This document shows positions 8,247 to 20,474 of a stretch of DNA of 48,195 nt, one piece after another. The notes beneath the pieces are model-generated. The model did not search any database. It was not told where the DNA came from and saw nothing but the letters and a program-made list of their open reading frames with translations. The DNA comes from Candidatus Omnitrophota bacterium (lineage in GTDB: Bacteria > Omnitrophota > Gorgyraeia > Zapsychrales > Zapsychraceae): positions 1-48,195 of the forward strand of contig JAJDCB010000030.1 of the NCBI GenBank assembly GCA_029261065.1, read 5' to 3'. Made by a program: the position numbers and the translations under genes. The stretch's first letter is position 1. The number at the start of each line of letters is the position of its first letter.

Positions 8247-8960
8247 ATGGTCTTTCCTGTTGGTGCGCGTTTTAGTCTTGTGTTGATAATTGTTACGTTT
8301 GCGTTTATCTGTTGGGTTGAGCTGGCGGATGAGAAATCGGTCAACACCCTTAATAAGGTCCCCCTCGTATCTCAAATAATTAATCAGCGTGAAAGGGTTG
8401 AGCATAAGGCCCGTGTTACAACGCTTAATCATCAAATCCCTGATTTCTCTCTTCTTGTGGCATCCATTTTTAATTCCAATGATTTCGAAGAAAATAATCT
8501 TAAACCCTATGTTCGTTATTATCAAAATGTCATTAAAGCCTTTCCTCAGATGGGAGAGGGCTACCAAATTTTGGGGTTTTGTTATTATCAGATGAAGGAT
8601 TATTCACAGGCGAAGGAGTACTTTTTAAAAGCATCTCTGTTGAGTCAGGATTCTTTTTACGTGTATTACAATTTGGGATTAAGTTATTTTCAACTTAAAG
8701 AGTACGATCGTGCGGTGGCTGTTTTAAAGCAGTCGGTTGAGCTGAGGCCTGAGAAGACGTTGCAAAGTATTATCCGATCCAAGGCTTATCAGCAGATATT
8801 TGCCAAGGCGGATTTAGGGGGCCATTTAAAGCAATTAAAAATTAAAGATCATTACAGGGATGCTGCAGCCCTTCTGCGTGTAAGTCAACAGATGCAAATG
8901 AACCCTCGATTGCTTGAGGCTCCCATCAATGTTAAGCAACTAAGGCCAAGGGTCTTATGA
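8247..8960 (+). CDS. TPR-repeat protein with N-terminal membrane anchor
   Basis: GYQILGFCYYQMKDYSQAKEYFLKASLLSQDSFYVYYNLGLSYFQLKEYDRAVAVLKQSVELRP. Confidence 0.8.
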   Translation: MVFPVGARFSLVLIIVTFAFICWVELADEKSVNTLNKVPLVSQIINQRERVEHKARVTTLNHQIPDFSLLVASIFNSNDFEENNLKPYVRYYQNVIKAFPQMGEGYQILGFCYYQMKDYSQAKEYFLKASLLSQDSFYVYYNLGLSYFQLKEYDRAVAVLKQSVELRPEKTLQSIIRSKAYQQIFAKADLGGHLKQLKIKDHYRDAAALLRVSQQMQMNPRLLEAPINVKQLRPRVL

Positions 8961-11041
8961 TTCAAAGCTGTTGGTCTCGTATCCAAAAACAATTAACATC
9001 CCTTTGGCCTTTTCTCCCGCCGGTTTTCTTGTGGTTATTTCTTTTCAAGAATTTCTTTTTAGGGCATCTTAAATTAATTGTCGATGCCCATATTTGTTTT
9101 ATTTACACGAATCATTATTTTAATCATTTATTGCGTGGTGTGTTCCCTTTGTGGAATCCTTTTAATGTGTGGGGTCGAGCAGATGACTTTGGCATGCGGA
9201 TGATTGGAGAGTTTAATCCCTTTTTATACCTGATTGCGGTTTTAAGAGTGATGGGGGTCTCCTTTAATAATGCGTATTCACTTTATCTGATCAGTTATTT
9301 TTTTGTTGGCGTCCTTGGGTTTTACCTGCTGAGTCAACGTCTATTTAAACGAAAGATTATTTCTTATGTGGCGATGCTTTTATTTATGTTCTCAAATGTC
9401 AGCGGATTGCTTTTTAATGATCTTTTGATCGTTCTTATCTTGATTCCTTCCATTTGGTTTTTTTATTTTCTAGTCAGTTTTACACAAGAACAAAAGGTTC
9501 ATTACTTTTTAGGTGTAGTCTTCTCCTTGATGATCATCGTGACAACCTACATTCCTTTTCATTTTTTAACAGTATTCTTAGTTTTTTTTATTTGTTTTTC
9601 TATTATCTATTATCGTTTGATCGGTGGTATTGCAAGAAGTTACTTTAAGTTTATCTCCTCTCATCTAATCGTTTTTATTTTTGGGTGTGTTTGTTTCACG
9701 ATTTCTCTTGTACCGGGATATTTTTGGTTTCTTGAATCAAAAGCAGGGGAGTATTACGTAGCGTGGCGTAGCGCGCAGGCAGATCCTTTATCATTAAACA
9801 TTAAGCTTATTAATTTAAGTGGATTGATAGGACCTAATTCTTGGGACGGGTTATTTTCCTATTTACAGACAATTGATATTAATCAATTTTATATGCCGAT
9901 CTTTGCTTTTATTCTTTTTGGGTTGGGGGCGTTTGTTCGCGTGACACGTCGGTTGGTGTTATTTTTGGTTTGCGGTGTGTTGATTATTTTGATCAGCTTA
10001 GCAGATGTCACAGGTATTCATGAATTCTTGTTCGATCATATTTTCTTCTTTAAATATTTCCGTAATCTTCATTTTTTACTTTGGTTTGCTTATCCTTTTT
10101 TTATTCTTTTTGTCTCCCAACAAGCCCATCAAGTTTTTTTAACCTTAGAGAACAAGAAAAGTAATAAGGGTCTGTTGATTTTTGCTATTTTTGTTGGGCA
10201 CATGCTATTTATATTATTTCTATTAAGTAAAGATAGCGTTGTTATTAGCTCTTTTCTAACTCTCATATTAAGTTTTGTATTTTTTGTGATGTTGATAACA
10301 TTTAAGAAATTTTGTAAATCTAGTTTTGGCATTTTGTTCTTACTTGCCGTTATTATTTTACAACCGATAGAAGTGTTTAGCCGAATAGCAGAAAAGTATA
10401 AGGGACATGTGTTTTCTTATGCTAAAAATCCTTACACTTTTGAGGAATCCAAACCGAATTTTGAGTATGTGCGTCCTAGAAGGGGGACAGGTCTCGTAGA
10501 AAGAGATACAAAAGGTTTTGGTGATGTACGTGACACGCATGGATTTGTGGATTGGGGGACATTTGATTTTGGTCTTGAAGGGACTCATGTATTGCAAACG
10601 CAACATAATGATCGCAAACTTCAAGAGTACGTTCGTCATAAATTTGTCATTTATGAAGAGGCTCCGAAAGAGGGGGATTTAAAGTTTACGGGAGGACAAT
10701 TTATTAAAGATACTTCCGAAAGTTTTTCTGTTAAAGAGTTTGATATTAATTATATAAAATTTGTTTCAAACTTTAATTCAAGAAAGTTTCTTATCTACAA
10801 CGACAGTTATCATAGCGGATGGAGGGCCATTGTTAATGGTACGCCGAGAGAGATATCTCGTTCTAACATCGCCTTTAAAGGCATTTGGTTGGAGGCGGGG
10901 GAGAATAGTGTTTATATGCATTTTCGATCACATGACCGGTATTACTTATTTGTTGGAACATTTTTTACTTTCTTAACAATTTTTAGCATTATTTTATATT
11001 TGTTTTGGCATGAAACAAAAATTAGGCATGAAAAAAAATAA
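8957..11041 (+). CDS. YfhO-like polytopic membrane protein
   Basis: Many TM helices; NPFNVWGRADDFGMRMIGEFNPFLYL and C-terminal LIYNDSYHSGWRAIVNGTPREISRSNIAFKGIWLEAGENSVYMHFRS are typical of YfhO proteins; ATGA overlap with upstream gene. Confidence 0.8.
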   Translation: MIQSCWSRIQKQLTSLWPFLPPVFLWLFLFKNFFLGHLKLIVDAHICFIYTNHYFNHLLRGVFPLWNPFNVWGRADDFGMRMIGEFNPFLYLIAVLRVMGVSFNNAYSLYLISYFFVGVLGFYLLSQRLFKRKIISYVAMLLFMFSNVSGLLFNDLLIVLILIPSIWFFYFLVSFTQEQKVHYFLGVVFSLMIIVTTYIPFHFLTVFLVFFICFSIIYYRLIGGIARSYFKFISSHLIVFIFGCVCFTISLVPGYFWFLESKAGEYYVAWRSAQADPLSLNIKLINLSGLIGPNSWDGLFSYLQTIDINQFYMPIFAFILFGLGAFVRVTRRLVLFLVCGVLIILISLADVTGIHEFLFDHIFFFKYFRNLHFLLWFAYPFFILFVSQQAHQVFLTLENKKSNKGLLIFAIFVGHMLFILFLLSKDSVVISSFLTLILSFVFFVMLITFKKFCKSSFGILFLLAVIILQPIEVFSRIAEKYKGHVFSYAKNPYTFEESKPNFEYVRPRRGTGLVERDTKGFGDVRDTHGFVDWGTFDFGLEGTHVLQTQHNDRKLQEYVRHKFVIYEEAPKEGDLKFTGGQFIKDTSESFSVKEFDINYIKFVSNFNSRKFLIYNDSYHSGWRAIVNGTPREISRSNIAFKGIWLEAGENSVYMHFRSHDRYYLFVGTFFTFLTIFSIILYLFWHETKIRHEKK

Positions 11042-11714
11042 CATTTTCTCAAATTTAATTTTTTTAACGCAAAGATGCTATGTGCTCTATATCATCGCGT
11101 TTATATCCCTTACGTTGATGATTTCACACAAAAGGGTTGTTTTTAAAACCTTGGACTATTTAAATGTTGTTCCAGGCTATCTGATCTCTTATGCTCAGGA
11201 TCAAGAGGCCCTATTTCTTGAGGAGAGGCAAGGGAAGGTGATACGTTATTATAAAAATTTGAAAAAAATTATGACGCCTTCGGCTTTAATTGAAGGCATG
11301 CTTGGCTTTAGTTATTTTCATGCAGGTCAATATAAAAGGGCAGCAAATTATTATGAAAAAGCAATCTCTTTGGATCAAAGTTTTTTTGGATTTTATTATA
11401 ATTTAGGTGTTATTTATTTTAAATTAGGTGAGTACGACCAAGCCATTAATATTTTTGAACAAGCTGTTAATGTTTCTCCCGCGAAAGCATTAAGTTATGC
11501 TCCGTATATTGATCCTTTTCTTCCAAAAGAAGGCGAGTGGAGTGCAAAAATAAAAGTGATGGCGCTTCAAAAGGCGTATAATAAATGTCTTAAACTAAAA
11601 AAGGCGAGTCAAAAATTTATTAAAGGTGATACGGTATTAGACGTTCAAGTTGAAGAGTTTTTATATTTTTATCCAATTTCACAAAAAAGTCTGATAAGAA
11701 AAAATAATTTTTGA
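11028..11714 (+). CDS. TPR-repeat protein, paralogous to 8247-8960
   Basis: LGFSYFHAGQYKRAANYYEKAISLDQSFFGFYYNLGVIYFKLGEYDQAINIFEQAVNVSP; start uncertain (ORF opens at 11010). Confidence 0.75.
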   Translation: MKKNNIFSNLIFLTQRCYVLYIIAFISLTLMISHKRVVFKTLDYLNVVPGYLISYAQDQEALFLEERQGKVIRYYKNLKKIMTPSALIEGMLGFSYFHAGQYKRAANYYEKAISLDQSFFGFYYNLGVIYFKLGEYDQAINIFEQAVNVSPAKALSYAPYIDPFLPKEGEWSAKIKVMALQKAYNKCLKLKKASQKFIKGDTVLDVQVEEFLYFYPISQKSLIRKNNF

Positions 11715-11725
11715 GTGGAGATTTT

Positions 11726-13192
11726 ATGAGAAAGATTTGGTCTTATTATAATCCGGCATTTGTTGTCGTATTTTTTGTAAGTATTCTAATAAATATTTTT
11801 ACCATTTATGATGGGCATAATTGGGGGGGGGACTTTAGCCAGTTTATTCTGCACGCGCTTAATATTGTAGAATCAAAGGGGTATACCAGTGATATCATGC
11901 TGGATCTCCATATTGTATATCCTCCCGGGTTTCCTCTGATTTTGGCTCCTTGGATCAAACTATTTGGTGTCAACTTTATTATTTTAAAATGTCTTAATAT
12001 TGTTTTTTGGTATGGCACCATTTTATTGGCCTATCCTCTTATTAAAGACAACGTTTCGCAAAGATTAGCTTCGTATGTCTGTATCCTTTTGTCCGTTTCT
12101 TATGAATTTTTTATATTCAAACAAAATGTTCTCTCAGATCTTCCTTTTTTGTTTTTTTTAACAGCGTCTATTTTTTTGTTTATTCGATATATTGAACGTG
12201 TCAATCAGCCACGCGTAATCTATGTGTTACTAACCGTTGTTACAATGGCAGTAGCTTTATTCATTAGATCAGCGGGAGCCGCTCTTTTTGTTGCTACTAT
12301 ATTTTATTTAGGACCTATAAATAGGCGTTGGCTATTATGTGTATGGTTTTTGGCGGGAATGGCGGCAACCTTTTTGTTACAAGGTTATTTGATTGGTGTT
12401 CATTTTGGCTATTTCGAATTGTTATTCGCACATCCCGATAGGTTTTTAATTGGTATCATAGAAAATTTTGATTTGGTTTTTAATAATATATTTGTATTCT
12501 TTATTCCAAACGGAATGTTGATAACACAGAAAATATTTTTAATGTTTAAATCTGGGAGCTACCTCCTGTCTTTATTGATTGTTATCGTGATTATTTGTAA
12601 ATTTTTTAAAGGAGTAAGGGGGCGTGATTTAAGTTTTTTAGCAAGCTTTCTTTGTATTTATTTACTCATGATTACTCTGTGGGCGGGAACACATTATCAG
12701 ATTTTGGGATATACGCGGTATGTGCTGCCGGTGCTTGTTCCTATTATAATTCTTATCGCTAAAGCGGTATCGTTGCCGCGTTTACCGCAATGGGTGAGAA
12801 ATGTCCCTCTTGTTGGAATAGTGATCTCGATATTTTTTAATTTAATAAATATAGGTGTTAATTATCAATCTAATGATGATGTGCTCTTAAGAAAAGACAA
12901 TGTAGAGATGTTTGAATGGGTTAAAACGCATTTGGATGAAGATCAACATTTTATGATATGGCAAACAAAAGTTATTACTTTGATGACGAATCGCGTGGGT
13001 ACAACACCGATTAAGGTCTCCAATCAGTCTGTGGATTTTTTTGACAGGATTAACGAATTTTATATTGATTATGTTATTTTAACTAAGGCCGTTGATCAAT
13101 CCTTTATTCAAGGTCTTCAATCACGCGAAGATATGGCAAGTCAAGTTTTCGAAAATAAAGTTTACAAAATTTTCAAAATTAAAGAGATATAA
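11726..13192 (+). CDS. Glycosyltransferase family 39-like membrane protein
   Basis: GGDFSQFILHALNIVESKGYTSDIMLDLHIVYPPGFPLILAPWIKLFG (GT39/ArnT-like loop); ATG at 11726 after ggag. Confidence 0.75.
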   Translation: MRKIWSYYNPAFVVVFFVSILINIFTIYDGHNWGGDFSQFILHALNIVESKGYTSDIMLDLHIVYPPGFPLILAPWIKLFGVNFIILKCLNIVFWYGTILLAYPLIKDNVSQRLASYVCILLSVSYEFFIFKQNVLSDLPFLFFLTASIFLFIRYIERVNQPRVIYVLLTVVTMAVALFIRSAGAALFVATIFYLGPINRRWLLCVWFLAGMAATFLLQGYLIGVHFGYFELLFAHPDRFLIGIIENFDLVFNNIFVFFIPNGMLITQKIFLMFKSGSYLLSLLIVIVIICKFFKGVRGRDLSFLASFLCIYLLMITLWAGTHYQILGYTRYVLPVLVPIIILIAKAVSLPRLPQWVRNVPLVGIVISIFFNLINIGVNYQSNDDVLLRKDNVEMFEWVKTHLDEDQHFMIWQTKVITLMTNRVGTTPIKVSNQSVDFFDRINEFYIDYVILTKAVDQSFIQGLQSREDMASQVFENKVYKIFKIKEI

Positions 13193-13197
13193 AGATC

Positions 13198-15507
13198 ATG
13201 TTTAAATTTGCGACCATTTTTTATATCGTTATTGGAATTATTACAGGAAGAGTCTTTCTTGAACTTAATCTTTTTGTCTATCCTAAAGAGATTGATCCGT
13301 TTCAGGATATTGCACGATTCTATCTGGAAAATATGTACTACTTTTTGATCGTTTTCTTAACGATGGTCTTTGTTCTTGGTAGATGTCTAAAGATAGAAAT
13401 CCGCGAGGTCGCCAATTTTGCCGTGCGTATGTTCTCCGTTATCCTTTTACCGCCTTTAATTGATTATTTTTTGGTTGGAAGACGCGAAGGTTACGATTAT
13501 GCATCTGTCGAACACATGATGAGTAATTTTTCCAATTTATCTTTTATAAAAGGTGATGCTACGTTGGGTATATCTGTAGAAATCTTGATAGCGTTACTGT
13601 GTATCTTTTTTTACAGTTTTAAGAAATCAAAAAATATATGGAAAGCTTTAGGAGTTACGGTGTTGCTTGATATGCTCCTTGTCTTTATTTCGACCCCAGA
13701 AATATTTTTTCAAGGAGGTCGAGATGATTATTATTATGATCATTTTTTGCCTGCCTATTATTTCTTTCCATTCATTTTTTTAGTGAGCATCTTTTATGCT
13801 TTTGTACACAAAGATAAGTTTAAAGCGTTAATCGGAAATATTAGGATAGTCAGATCACTTGTCTTTATCTGTGCAGTATTAGTAGGAGGGGCCATTAGTT
13901 TTGCGACAACTAAAGAATTTTATATTTGGAATCTGTCTTTGGGATCAGTTGCCATATTTTTTGTCTGGCAAGTGTCCGTCCTATTAAATGATATTTATGA
14001 TATTGAAATCGATCGAATCACGAACAGCCAAAGACCTTTAGTGACAGGGGTGTGTTCTATCGTTGAGTACAGGTTTATTTCCGTTCTTTTTTCTTTTTGG
14101 GCGATATCTTTCGCGGCTGTTATCACTTGGCAAGTCTTCATACTTACTCTTATCACATTAATTTTTGCTATATGTTATTCTGTCCCACCGTTTCGTTTGC
14201 GGAAAAATTTTATGGGTAATATCATCATTGGTCTCTCGTTGATGTTATCGATGCATGCTGGATTGTATTGCGCTTCGTATGGCTATCCCGCTGAGCTCAT
14301 TATCTTTTCTAAACATGGGCTGATGTTATCTGTGGTCATGTTCTTGCTGGGGTGCGTCATTTCTACTGTCAAAGATATCAAGGACATTAAATCTGATAAG
14401 GCTCATGGTATTTCCAATTGTTTTACGGTCTTTGGCAAAACAAAGGGGAAATGGATTGTTTGTGCGCTGGTGTTTATAACATTTGCTCTTTTGGGTCTTT
14501 TGTTAAAAAGTACGTTTGTTATCATTTTGGCTTTTATGATTGCGCTGATATTTTATATCTTTGAAACAATCAAAGGTGTGTATTTGTTGGGTATTTTATT
14601 AACGTTGTGTTCCTTCTTTTTCTTTTATCGCGATGTGCATCAGAACCCTAAGATATATATAGAAATGAGCAATCCGCAGTTAGAAACTGAATTTCCTGAT
14701 AATTATATTAAATTTTCTAGAAATCAAAGACAATTAAACGAAAAGTTCTATGAAATTAACGGGTGGTTATTATTAAAAAATATCTTACTTAAAAAAATGG
14801 GAACGCCCCAGACAACTAAATTTGAAGATATCCTTCTAAGTTTTGAAAATACGAAAGGCATCTACGGCTGGTGGCCAGATAAATATATGAAGAAGGGAAA
14901 GGAATATATCAAAGATATGCCGCCAGTGTATCTCGCGCCTGATTTGGATGATACCGCCTGGATTTACAAACATAAGGGCGTCAATTTACCGGCACCCATT
15001 GTTGAACGTTTTACATCGGATTTAGATTTACCCGATGAGTATCTTGGAATCTGTCATGAATTATCCTGTGATGAAGATTATATTCTTAGGGTTTGGGGGA
15101 CAAGGGGGTGGAGCGAAGATATTGATATTGTTGTCATAGCAAACGCGCTAACCTCTATTGAACCCACGAATCCTTTCCTTAATAAAGTTATTGAAGAAAA
15201 CACGCGACTCATTAACCACATCATCGAGAATTATAATTTTAGTGATTATTTTAAATATTTCGAACCAAAGGTGTCTGGTGTTGCATTATTATTGTTTTAC
15301 GATTCTGAATTTCAACCATACTTGTCAAATGCATCGAGGCAAATTCTTATCGATTATCTCAAAAAAAATATTCAACAATTAAATGATGGACCGATTGTTT
15401 CACGATGGGGGGCTGGGGAAGATGTTTTCTATGGATTAAACATTGTGACGTTTAATGATCAAGTTTCTTCTTTGCTTTATGAGTTTTCAAGAGAATATCT
15501 TAAGTGA
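13198..15507 (+). CDS. UbiA-family prenyltransferase with N-terminal membrane extension and C-terminal DXDDTA-containing (class II terpene cyclase-like) domain
   Basis: NDIYDIEIDRITNSQRPLVTG (13987-) and second Asp motif DIKDIKSDKAHG (14374-) identify UbiA; PDLDDTAWIY at 14938- matches the DXDDTA motif; single uninterrupted 769-aa ORF. Confidence 0.8.
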   Translation: MFKFATIFYIVIGIITGRVFLELNLFVYPKEIDPFQDIARFYLENMYYFLIVFLTMVFVLGRCLKIEIREVANFAVRMFSVILLPPLIDYFLVGRREGYDYASVEHMMSNFSNLSFIKGDATLGISVEILIALLCIFFYSFKKSKNIWKALGVTVLLDMLLVFISTPEIFFQGGRDDYYYDHFLPAYYFFPFIFLVSIFYAFVHKDKFKALIGNIRIVRSLVFICAVLVGGAISFATTKEFYIWNLSLGSVAIFFVWQVSVLLNDIYDIEIDRITNSQRPLVTGVCSIVEYRFISVLFSFWAISFAAVITWQVFILTLITLIFAICYSVPPFRLRKNFMGNIIIGLSLMLSMHAGLYCASYGYPAELIIFSKHGLMLSVVMFLLGCVISTVKDIKDIKSDKAHGISNCFTVFGKTKGKWIVCALVFITFALLGLLLKSTFVIILAFMIALIFYIFETIKGVYLLGILLTLCSFFFFYRDVHQNPKIYIEMSNPQLETEFPDNYIKFSRNQRQLNEKFYEINGWLLLKNILLKKMGTPQTTKFEDILLSFENTKGIYGWWPDKYMKKGKEYIKDMPPVYLAPDLDDTAWIYKHKGVNLPAPIVERFTSDLDLPDEYLGICHELSCDEDYILRVWGTRGWSEDIDIVVIANALTSIEPTNPFLNKVIEENTRLINHIIENYNFSDYFKYFEPKVSGVALLLFYDSEFQPYLSNASRQILIDYLKKNIQQLNDGPIVSRWGAGEDVFYGLNIVTFNDQVSSLLYEFSREYLK

Positions 15508-16507
15508 TGTCGGGATTAAAAATGATAGGAGCGTCTTTGTGGTCATGACGCCAAATATAGGCATCCCAAATGAAGTGGCATAACACTGGGGTTAAAAAAA
15601 TGGCTGTAAGAAAAGCTTTTTTGATTGAGCTTGTAGTTAGTATATAACTATAGTCTAACGTAACGAGCGGTTCTAAAATAATAAATTCTATGACGACTAA
15701 TCCTATGCTACTTAATCCAAGAGTTAAGAAAACTTTTTTTAAATTTAAATATTTTTTACTATTAAGTCGCTTTAAGCTAATTCCGGTAGCGGCCCAATAC
15801 TGAAATCCATGAAGCATAAGAATAGGAAACATGATTTCAGCCGTTGAGTTTCCTTTTAGAAAGCAAATGGCAGATACAATGGATGGTGTCAGAATGGCGA
15901 GAAAACGGTTTAATTCGCGGATGCCTTTCTTAAGCAAGCCTATTTCAAAGATGATCCAGCATCCTACAAGAAGAACATAAACAACTAGTCCTGATTGGAA
16001 CAATTGAGGAGAAGGAAAGAAGATAAAGTCATGATCGGAGTATAATTCAACTTCAACACTTTCTCGGAAATGAAAAATAACAAAAGGAAATATCGTTAAA
16101 GCATACATAAACCTGTTAGAAATTTTGCAAAATCGCTTGTTTAGTTTTTCATACCAACAGATAAACCCATAGAGTTGACGAAAGTGGTGATAAAAGCCAA
16201 AATAAACAACGGCAGACCAAAGGTAGGGGATTTTTAAATAAACCCAAAGAAATACTACAAATATCGCAGCAAGGGGAACGATCCAATAGCGAGGGCTAGA
16301 TTCTCGTTCTTCTTTACGAAATATTGTTCTCCAAAAGGCGAAATAGACATGGCCTGTGTCGGGGATCATTAAGACAAAATAATAGTATATGAGAAAAATA
16401 GCGGATTTTTCGGGTAAGTTAAAGGAAATTAATAGGCCTATTAATCCTGGAAGGTTAATCCATAGTAAATCATTTGTTTTTTTGCCCAATATCCAATTTT
16501 TGTTCAA
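15500..16507 (-). CDS. Hypothetical His-rich polytopic membrane protein
   Basis: DTGHVYFAFWRT, FYHHFRQLYGF, LHGFQYWA, CHFIWDAYIWRHDH; family not recognised. Confidence 0.65.
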   Translation of the reverse strand: MNKNWILGKKTNDLLWINLPGLIGLLISFNLPEKSAIFLIYYYFVLMIPDTGHVYFAFWRTIFRKEERESSPRYWIVPLAAIFVVFLWVYLKIPYLWSAVVYFGFYHHFRQLYGFICWYEKLNKRFCKISNRFMYALTIFPFVIFHFRESVEVELYSDHDFIFFPSPQLFQSGLVVYVLLVGCWIIFEIGLLKKGIRELNRFLAILTPSIVSAICFLKGNSTAEIMFPILMLHGFQYWAATGISLKRLNSKKYLNLKKVFLTLGLSSIGLVVIEFIILEPLVTLDYSYILTTSSIKKAFLTAIFLTPVLCHFIWDAYIWRHDHKDAPIIFNPDIT

Positions 16508-17442: not shown

Positions 17443-19341
17443 TTAATAGATTTTAGGAAAAAATGAGTCAGATAGCGGTAGGGTTGGCCTCATGATAGAG
17501 TTTACACGGTGACTATCGTTGTGTCTTGGTAGTCGTTTCTCTGCAGGAAAAGCAAGATGAAATCTTTTTTCATTTAAAACGTAGAGAGGGATATTTAAAT
17601 TATCATAACGGCGTTTGTTATCAAGAGGTTCTTTTTTAAGAAATAAGAAGGCTGATATACGACTCGTTGTATAAATCTTGATCATTTGTTTTGCTATATA
17701 AGGATCAGAACTAAAATCGATAGAACCTCTCTCAGTTCCTACCCCCGTTTTTTTTAACCAAGCCTTTCCTAAATCTTCAAGGGACATATTGATGACCTCA
17801 AAAGCCTCGGCATTATCTTCTTCAAGGATTGCAAAAAAGGGAAGGATGGTCTTAAAGTTTGCTTGTAAAGTGGTGTTGTAATATATTGGCCACAGCTCGG
17901 GCATTTGACTATTTTCTAAATTTTCTTCATTTAAGGGGCGTGTGCCGGGCATATCGAGGGCGATAAACCCATCTTGCTTTAAACGCCTTTGTGCGATTTG
18001 GTAGAATTCTTTGCTATATAATTTGCTTAAATTGTAATTTTTTGGATCTGGAAAGTCGAGATAAATAGCATCGTAGTTTTCTGTATCTGTTCGGATAAAG
18101 TGGTAACCATCAGCAATAATGGATGTGACCTTCGGATGATTAAGGGCTCCTTTATTTAAGTAACTTAAAACAGGATGTGTTTTAGAAAGCTCGATCATCT
18201 TTTTATCAAGCTCAACATGAACGATGTTTGTGACAAAAGAATGTTTTAAAAGTTCTCGAATAAGACACCCATCACCGCCGCCTATCACCAGAATATTTTT
18301 TGGTTTATGTTGATTTAAAATAATGGGAACGTGGGCAAAATACTCATGATAGATTTCTTCTGAGTTGCTTCCTAATTGGTACGCCCCGTCTAAATGGAGG
18401 GTGTAGTCCCAAGGAGTTTGAGGATCAAGTTTATATTTCTGACTATAAACTTTAGAAAGATATTGAGCAGTCTCTTCAGTTTGAGTGTTATGTTTGACGA
18501 TATCAATTTTTTGATAAGGCGTATGATAGCGTTCGATAGGGGCAAGGGATGAGTCAAATCCGAAATACGTAAATATGTTTTTGGAGCGTTGTGCTTGAAA
18601 GAAATAATCACTGAAATGATAACGTTTATGAAGGAAATATTGTTCTATTGCTTGAGAGAATGTTAAGCCTAGAATAAGTAAAGTTCCAATCCCGAGCGTG
18701 AGTATTTGATGCTTCTTTTGTGATGTCTTGACAAATTGTTGATAAAGAAAAAAAGCGATTGCAAGGTTGATCAATGCTATCGAAAAACCAATAGGTATGA
18801 TATCCCAACGAGGCAGTAGATATAAAGGAAAAATAAGGGCTCCAATAAGAGATCCAAAATAATCGGCTGCTAGCACGCGATTGGTTATTTTTTTCTTTTG
18901 AGAGGATATGTGAGCAATATTTATTAAAAGAGGAAGCTCGATACCAGAAAGAAAACCAATGCTTACGGTGAGGATAATAAAACTTAAACAGTAAATGATA
19001 TCAGCACTTAGATAATGTCCGTGAAGATTCACAAGATATCCCGTCATTTTAACGACATGCATAAAAAATACGGAAAGTCCTCCCACAAAACTAAGAAGAA
19101 GTTCAACATAAAATAAAGCCTTCCATGGATTTTGCGTGTGAGGTTTGTTGCTGCAATAAAGGGCTCCTAAACCCATAGCACCTAGATACAATCCAATGGT
19201 TAACACATACCAATATTCAATATTGGTAGCTAGACTAGATACCGTTTGAGCAATTAATAATTCATAGAGAATGCTGCAAGCGGCGAGAATAAATGTGATG
19301 GGATAAATAAGTTTGGGGCGTTTAAGCTTATTTGCAATCAA
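17443..19341 (-). CDS. speE: Membrane-fused spermidine synthase-like aminopropyltransferase (N-terminal TM domain + SpeE-like domain)
   Basis: NILVIGGGDGCLIRELLKH, HVELDKKMIELSK, YDAIYLDFPDPKNYNLSKLYSKEFY; N-terminal multi-TM domain. Confidence 0.88.
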   Translation of the reverse strand: MIANKLKRPKLIYPITFILAACSILYELLIAQTVSSLATNIEYWYVLTIGLYLGAMGLGALYCSNKPHTQNPWKALFYVELLLSFVGGLSVFFMHVVKMTGYLVNLHGHYLSADIIYCLSFIILTVSIGFLSGIELPLLINIAHISSQKKKITNRVLAADYFGSLIGALIFPLYLLPRWDIIPIGFSIALINLAIAFFLYQQFVKTSQKKHQILTLGIGTLLILGLTFSQAIEQYFLHKRYHFSDYFFQAQRSKNIFTYFGFDSSLAPIERYHTPYQKIDIVKHNTQTEETAQYLSKVYSQKYKLDPQTPWDYTLHLDGAYQLGSNSEEIYHEYFAHVPIILNQHKPKNILVIGGGDGCLIRELLKHSFVTNIVHVELDKKMIELSKTHPVLSYLNKGALNHPKVTSIIADGYHFIRTDTENYDAIYLDFPDPKNYNLSKLYSKEFYQIAQRRLKQDGFIALDMPGTRPLNEENLENSQMPELWPIYYNTTLQANFKTILPFFAILEEDNAEAFEVINMSLEDLGKAWLKKTGVGTERGSIDFSSDPYIAKQMIKIYTTSRISAFLFLKKEPLDNKRRYDNLNIPLYVLNEKRFHLAFPAEKRLPRHNDSHRVNSIMRPTLPLSDSFFPKIY

Positions 19342-19695
19342 CTAAAAACCTCTAGCAATTGTTTTGATGTTTACTGTTTTGGCTTCAAAAGCTTGCTTGA
19401 GGACATCGATAGCGATGTTAGGATCCATAGGACCACAGGTAAAGACATCAAAAGCGGCATATTGGTGTTCGGGCCAAGTATGAATAGAAAAATGAGACTC
19501 TTCAATTAATATCACACCGCTAACACCATCGGGTTGAAACTGATGAAAGTGATGGCTTACGATCGTGGCGTTACTTTCCTGTGCAGATTTTAATAAATTT
19601 AGCTTTACTGTTTCAACATTTTTGAGAGTCTCGGCATTGCATTGCAGAAATTCGACAAGAAAATGTTGTCCAAATGTATTTTTGATGGGTTCCAT
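19342..19695 (-). CDS. speD: S-adenosylmethionine decarboxylase proenzyme
   Basis: GVSGVILIEESHFSIHTWPEHQYAAFDVFTCG (pyruvoyl cleavage-site ESH motif). Confidence 0.95.
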   Translation of the reverse strand: MEPIKNTFGQHFLVEFLQCNAETLKNVETVKLNLLKSAQESNATIVSHHFHQFQPDGVSGVILIEESHFSIHTWPEHQYAAFDVFTCGPMDPNIAIDVLKQAFEAKTVNIKTIARGF

Positions 19696-19716
19696 AAGAA
19701 AAAGTTATCCTACTCT

Positions 19717-20409
19717 TTAAAATAAAACATATTGGTTAAGAAAGTAAAGGTCAATTTCTGCTGCGTTTAAGTAACAAACAGCAATGAGTATCAGAGCCAG
19801 CGATTGGATCGTGTAACTTAATATAAATTTATTTGATGATGGGGTATCTAAGTTTTTTGAAGTATTCCATAGAAGCATGCCGCAGACAGCATTGATGAGT
19901 CCGATAGTTAATGCTGTTGGCATGAGTCCTATCTTTGGGAAAAAGAAATAAGCAAATACGACTGTTCCAGCAAAGGCGCCTAAATAGTTAATAGCTAAGA
20001 CACGATTCTCAGACTTTGATGATTTGTCATGAGATAAAGCCATGAGCAACGGGATTTCCATGCCAGAGAGCAGGCCAATGATAATAATGAGTGCGTGTGC
20101 TATGAGAATAAAAAACATCCGTGATAAGCCTATCATATCAAGAGTATGCAGTGTCATAACTGAAAATCCACCAATAAGTGTTAGTAAGATTTCTACACGA
20201 AGCAAATTGAGGGAGGGGGTTTTGAGCATGCGTCCTTCAGCCATCAAAGCTCCCCAACCAAGAGCAAACATGTAAAGACCAATGGTCACGCTGTATCTTA
20301 GGACCGTATTTTCAAGAAATGCTGAAAGCGCTTGTGCAAAGATAAGCTCATAAACAATGCTACAAAAGGCCAAGAAGAAGATAATAATATTTAATAATTT
20401 GTTATTCAT
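19717..20409 (-). CDS. Membrane protein homologous to the N-terminal TM domain of the adjacent membrane spermidine synthase, lacking the catalytic domain
   Basis: AFCSIVYELIFAQALSAFLEN...SVTIGLYMFALGWGAL and GLLSGMEIPLLMAL align with ACSILYELLIAQTVSSLATN...VLTIGLYLGAMGLGAL and GFLSGIELPLLINI; ORF opens at 20439, ATG used here at 20409. Confidence 0.75.
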   Translation of the reverse strand: MNNKLLNIIIFFLAFCSIVYELIFAQALSAFLENTVLRYSVTIGLYMFALGWGALMAEGRMLKTPSLNLLRVEILLTLIGGFSVMTLHTLDMIGLSRMFFILIAHALIIIIGLLSGMEIPLLMALSHDKSSKSENRVLAINYLGAFAGTVVFAYFFFPKIGLMPTALTIGLINAVCGMLLWNTSKNLDTPSSNKFILSYTIQSLALILIAVCYLNAAEIDLYFLNQYVLF

Positions 20410-20474
20410 TAGGATAGATGTTAAGAGTTGGAATGCCAATAGGGTGGATCGCTCGAGTTCTGAAAAATTTTATT

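Follow-up and report, generated by a model that had tools for sequence, protein, structure and literature searches.

Squalene-hopene cyclase consists of two α/α domains and carries QW repeats. AstC and AsDMS (PDB 22ty and 9mhs) are terpene cyclases with a single TC-β domain in a HAD-TC-β arrangement. In AstC, D273 is the acid and is held by N324 and Y361, and D271 is the base; the N324A, Y361F, D271A, and T274A mutants are inactive (PMC13244436). In the drimenol synthase AsDMS, residues D331, D333, and Y427 are essential, and the D333N and Y427F substitutions kill activity (PMC12365925). A related chemistry is found in the merosterol pathway, in which the product of a UbiA-like prenyltransferase is cyclized by MstE, a monodomain class II cyclase (PMC9401909, PMC5618424).

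Here we describe a gene from Candidatus Omnitrophota that lies in a 48,195-nucleotide stretch of DNA, which we refer to as the window. Based on sequence comparison, we propose with a probability of about 0.5 that the gene encodes a UbiA–TC-β fusion working as a two-step membrane enzyme. The gene is best read as known parts put together in a new arrangement of domains. The gene occupies positions 13198 to 15507 of the forward strand and is a single open frame of 769 aa starting from ATG, as the sequence-only reading had proposed. Open reading frame, Pfam, and transmembrane analyses divide the product into three parts. A hydropathy scan found six transmembrane (TM) segments ahead of the UbiA domain and nine within it, followed by 291 soluble residues. 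The N-terminal six-TM domain (aa 1 to 216; 13198 to 13845) belongs to no named family. The UbiA domain (aa 217 to 478; 13846 to 14631) carries two Asp-rich motifs, both in predicted cytoplasmic loops: NDIYDIEID (aa 264 to 272; 13987 to 14013) and DIKDIKSD (aa 393 to 400; 14374 to 14397). The C-terminal soluble domain, or tail (aa 479 to 769; 14632 to 15504), is predicted to be α/α and appears to be a divergent TC-β-like domain, judging from its similarity to a toroid family. It contains DLDDTA (aa 582 to 587; 14941 to 14958), in which D584 is the candidate Brønsted acid. The motifs named in the sequence-only reading were all recovered in the translated frame (NDIYDIEIDR as N264 to R273, DIKDIKSDK as D393 to K401, and PDLDDTAWIY from base 14938). 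The soluble region was also where it had been placed, after UbiA, but is longer than the estimated 270 aa or so.

The UbiA assignment held up well. The sole Pfam match of the protein is to UbiA (PF01040; aa 227 to 456), with an E value of 2.7e-25 and a score of 89.5 bits against a cut-off of 34.2. This profile match, the two Asp-rich motifs (NDxxDxxxD and DxxxD), and the nine TM helices together place the domain in the UbiA family. Both motifs are kept in the orthologue from a second genome of the same family, G017. The N-terminal TM region had been regarded as an unusual extra. However, the combination of a six-TM block and UbiA is widespread in the phylum and occurs in several genomes, for example at L035:5050-6501, L037:6148-7782, and L042:3459-4985. 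These proteins have the same first two domains as the window protein but lack the C-terminal domain. In genome G211, three such genes lie in one 12-kb stretch (L042 1801 to 3411, 3459 to 4985, and 8311 to 9840), two in tandem and one inverted.

The tail had no direct match in Pfam, NCBIfam, or the PDB. We searched the phylum with a toroid-like consensus, which served as bait only; all later claims rest on the real sequences found. The search recovered real toroid proteins in family f33, from genomes G333, G238, and G309. The G333 protein is a standalone 352-aa toroid from a genome of the same class as that of the window, with the segments GLWSYWP...WTPPDLDDTA, VDCAVTANAL, and HYYLKP. The tail matched it with a BLAST E value of 0.002 and a Smith-Waterman Z score of 5.7, and 0 of 400 shuffles reached the score. 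The aligned blocks come in the same order in both proteins: WWP..APDLDDTA, DIxVxANAL, and YFEP (Y-x-E/K-P). With a three-member profile (G333, Nostoc, and Novosphingobium), the tail was the best nonmember among about 1,800 decoys (E value of 0.071), and hhalign of the tail against the toroid family gave a P value of 0.0024. Profile HMMs built from G333, G238, and G309 did not find the tail. The G017 orthologue alone had no detectable similarity to the toroids, and adding it lowered the profile signal to a Z score of 0.3 to 2.5. The sequence signal between the tail and the toroids is real but weak.

The G333 toroid in turn matched AstC (E value of 3.5e-5 over about 200 residues) and squalene-hopene cyclase (4.2e-6), and the three-member family profile matched AsDMS (5.9e-10). 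Through this family, the tail may be related to the β domains of class II terpene cyclases, as our main reading has it. The motif by itself is weak evidence, with about 0.2 DxDDTA occurrences expected per proteome by composition; in about 274,000 ORF residues (some loci overlap), a single protein apart from the product of this gene had it, and that protein is a toroid. AlphaFold models of the tail, made with one orthologue and then with two distant toroids added, were helix-rich and of low confidence (pLDDT of 39.5 and 43.8), and a PDB fold search with the second of these models returned no match. In the alignment, the tail appears about one helical hairpin shorter than G333 at its end, and its barrel may be incomplete.

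The alignment also placed three residues of the tail, D584, N649 (15142 to 15144), and Y687 (15256 to 15258), on D273, N324, and Y361 of AstC; D582 falls on the AstC base D271, and Y687 also corresponds to Y427 of AsDMS. The spacing from the Asn to the Tyr is 38 residues in the window protein, 35 in G333, and 37 in AstC. Of seven toroids, five have Asp at the acid position, G238 has Glu, and G309 has Ala. The G309 toroid lacks the acid, the Asn, and the Tyr, and therefore catalysis has probably been lost in some members of this group. A class II cyclase-like tail had been proposed from the motif. That proposal gains from the link through the G333 family and from the Asp/Asn/Tyr triad, but no Pfam, NCBIfam, or PDB entry matches the tail directly. 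Kinship with squalene-hopene cyclase, also suggested earlier, has to give way: the tail has no direct match to it, and the relatives are of the single-β-domain AstC/AsDMS and MstE type.

The same three-part layout recurs in the G017 orthologue (780 aa; L006:7-2349), and therefore the fusion is no assembly accident. The two proteins are 36% identical overall and 31 to 33% identical in the tail (E value of 6e-37). We found the tail convincingly nowhere else among the 81 genomes of the order and the 384 genomes of the class that were searched, and a tblastn search of plasmids with the tail gave no match. A match in G170 was judged spurious, as it overlaps an exonuclease-like gene. A scan of genome contigs with the whole protein yielded a single locus, which matched the UbiA residues alone. 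The near-orthologue in G046 ends cleanly after UbiA. The UbiA tree groups the window protein with those of G017 and G046 and, within this clade, pairs G017 with G046 (100/100 and 97/87). This topology suggests that the tail was probably present in the common ancestor of the three and was then lost in G046. Loss of DLDDTA among orthologues, which the sequence-only reading would have counted against itself, is seen in part: the only orthologue keeps the acid Asp, but its motif reads HVDVTM, with D582, D585, and A587 replaced. It also keeps the counterparts of N649 and Y687.

These observations bear on the main rival to a catalytic tail. The tail could be a degenerate, non-cyclizing TC-β toroid that serves as a chaperone, gate, or scaffold at the periplasmic face by binding a partner protein or the prenylated product, and UbiA would then carry out the sole chemistry. 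The decay of the motif in G017 points this way, as do the disappearance of all three catalytic residues from the G309 toroid, the absence of the domain from G046, which suggests that it can be dispensable, and the apparently shortened C-terminal end. However, the window copy retains the full DLDDTA, and D584, N649, and Y687 persist in the orthologue even as the residues around them drift, as would be expected under selection on an acid network. We consider this alternative unlikely, though a serious one.

We then asked where else a UbiA protein and a toroid occur together. A tblastn search of plasmids with the G333 toroid gave two records, Nostoc sp. C052 and Novosphingobium sp. RL4. The Nostoc protein, WP_179070293.1, has 1,218 aa and consists of PhyH, UbiA (E value of 4.2e-19), a toroid with PPDLDDTC, and TPR. 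The sequence-only reading had not recognized the order of UbiA followed by a cyclase-like domain as an existing architecture; this protein is a precedent for it. Its gene (L108 4027 to 7683; NZ_CP040276.1), annotated as a TPR protein, is surrounded by genes for glycosyltransferases and sulfotransferases. In Novosphingobium sp. RL4, a 376-aa toroid is encoded no more than 1 kb from a UbiA gene (E value of 1.7e-16). A single ORF in G309 joins a UbiA-like membrane part to the toroid, a probable fusion, and in G238 the toroid has as neighbors a UbiA-like membrane protein and a gene for a geranylgeranyl reductase (TIGR02032, above cut-off). In these two genomes the UbiA-like call comes from the motif and the hydrophobic pattern, and Pfam recognizes neither protein. 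At the two loci of family f33 (L092 1856 to 5074 and L101 2908 to 6176), a geranylgeranyl-reductase-like gene lies beside the UbiA-like protein and the toroid, which are fused in the case of G309.

The UbiA domains of Nostoc and Novosphingobium fall apart from that of the window protein in the UbiA tree, in which some deep branches are weak. Because the partner UbiA domains are not sisters, the pairing seems to have more than one origin, and such recurrence, in the few cases at hand, would argue for a functional link. To this extent, the earlier idea that prenyl transfer and cyclization are coupled gains plausibility. More tentatively, and at less than even odds, we suggest a bifunctional class in which UbiA is fused to or paired with a TC-β cyclase, which arose repeatedly in bacteria and makes cyclized prenylated membrane lipids, with cyclization on the periplasmic side in the present lineage.

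The fusion gene follows four tightly packed genes on the same strand (8247 to 13192), which encode a TPR protein, a 694-aa membrane protein, a second TPR protein, and a PMT_2-like glycosyltransferase. The glycosyltransferase gene (11711 to 13192) is separated from the fusion gene by 5 bp, and the upstream genes and the fusion gene are probably one operon. The 694-aa multi-TM protein (8957 to 11041), encoded between the two TPR genes, belongs to no named family. The fusion gene is overlapped at its 3′ end by a gene on the opposite strand (15500 to 16507), which encodes a 335-aa membrane protein that falls in no family of Pfam or NCBIfam. In G000, G017, and G046, the UbiA gene is flanked by a trio encoding a TM protein, an AdoMet decarboxylase, and a TM-fused spermidine synthase (SpeD/SpeE) (window 17443 to 20439, reverse strand; L033 12453 to 15402; L035 57 to 4977). 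Many genomes of the order carry the trio but no UbiA gene next to it, and we therefore no longer count it as a functional partner.

The neighborhood raises another possibility, that the UbiA half, in the manner of decaprenyl-phosphate phosphoribosyltransferase, is a polyprenyl-phosphate sugar enzyme that feeds the neighboring GT-C glycosyltransferases. The toroid would then tailor or recognize the polyprenyl carrier. This alternative is about what UbiA acts on and fits either reading of the tail. The PMT_2-like enzyme directly upstream is consistent with this, and a PMT-like enzyme is likewise encoded beside an N-TM–UbiA gene in G252; the Nostoc fusion, as noted, is found among glycosyltransferases. 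However, the NCBIfam model for decaprenyl-phosphate phosphoribosyltransferase scored 12.4 bits against a cut-off of 207 (E value of 0.054), which does not place the protein in that family, compared with E values of 2.4e-20 for PRK12884 and 2e-19 for ChlG, the nearest NCBIfam models, all of which fall far under their own cut-offs. We regard such a role as improbable. Least probable of all is a tail that is an unrelated helical domain, such as a glycoside-hydrolase-type α/α barrel acting on a lipid-linked sugar with a coincidental DLDDTA: a weak rhamnosidase match (E value of 0.32), the operon shared with the glycosyltransferase, and the low-confidence models with their empty fold search would suit it, but the WWP...APDLDDTA, DIxVxANAL, and Y-x-E/K-P blocks recur in the same order in G333, and DxDDTA is rare outside toroids in the ORFs scanned.

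Returning to a UbiA–TC-β fusion enzyme, we propose the following mechanism. From the chemistry of its family, the UbiA domain would prenylate an acceptor on the cytoplasmic side of the membrane. In the known layout of UbiA proteins both Asp-rich loops face the cytoplasm, and the tail, coming after TM 9, is therefore predicted to be periplasmic. The tail would then most likely act on the attached chain, much as MstE in the merosterol pathway takes over after a UbiA-like enzyme. If it works as AstC does, N649 and Y687 would hold D584 in place, and cyclization would begin when D584 donates a proton to the isoprenoid at its terminal double bond. The genome contains no squalene-hopene cyclase N domain (SQHop_cyclase_N model) and no squalene/phytoene synthase, which makes a triterpene substrate less likely. 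If the tail cyclizes, one polypeptide would couple prenyl transfer with class II cyclization across the membrane, and we found no described example of this in the literature searched. D584, N649, and Y687 form a defined candidate triad open to mutation, and the recurrence of UbiA with a toroid in unrelated bacteria provides a sequence handle for mining cyclized lipids or meroterpenoids.

Among known systems, squalene-hopene cyclase shares DxDDTA with the window protein. However, the tail is a single domain of 291 aa and has no match to the SQHop_cyclase models, which sets it outside that family. In the merosterol pathway, the prenyltransferase and MstE are separate proteins, whereas the two parts are fused in the window protein; the tail has no detectable direct sequence match to MstE. 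The Nostoc protein WP_179070293.1 resembles the window protein in having UbiA and then a DxDDT toroid in one chain, but it has PhyH in front instead of the six-TM block, TPR behind, and a UbiA domain of another branch. AstC and AsDMS are like the window protein in that a single TC-β domain stands behind another enzyme, with the acid Asp and the Tyr at matching positions and, in AstC, the Asn as well. Their partner is a soluble HAD-like domain and their substrate is farnesyl diphosphate, whereas in the window protein the partner is a membrane-embedded UbiA domain and the tail is predicted to be periplasmic.
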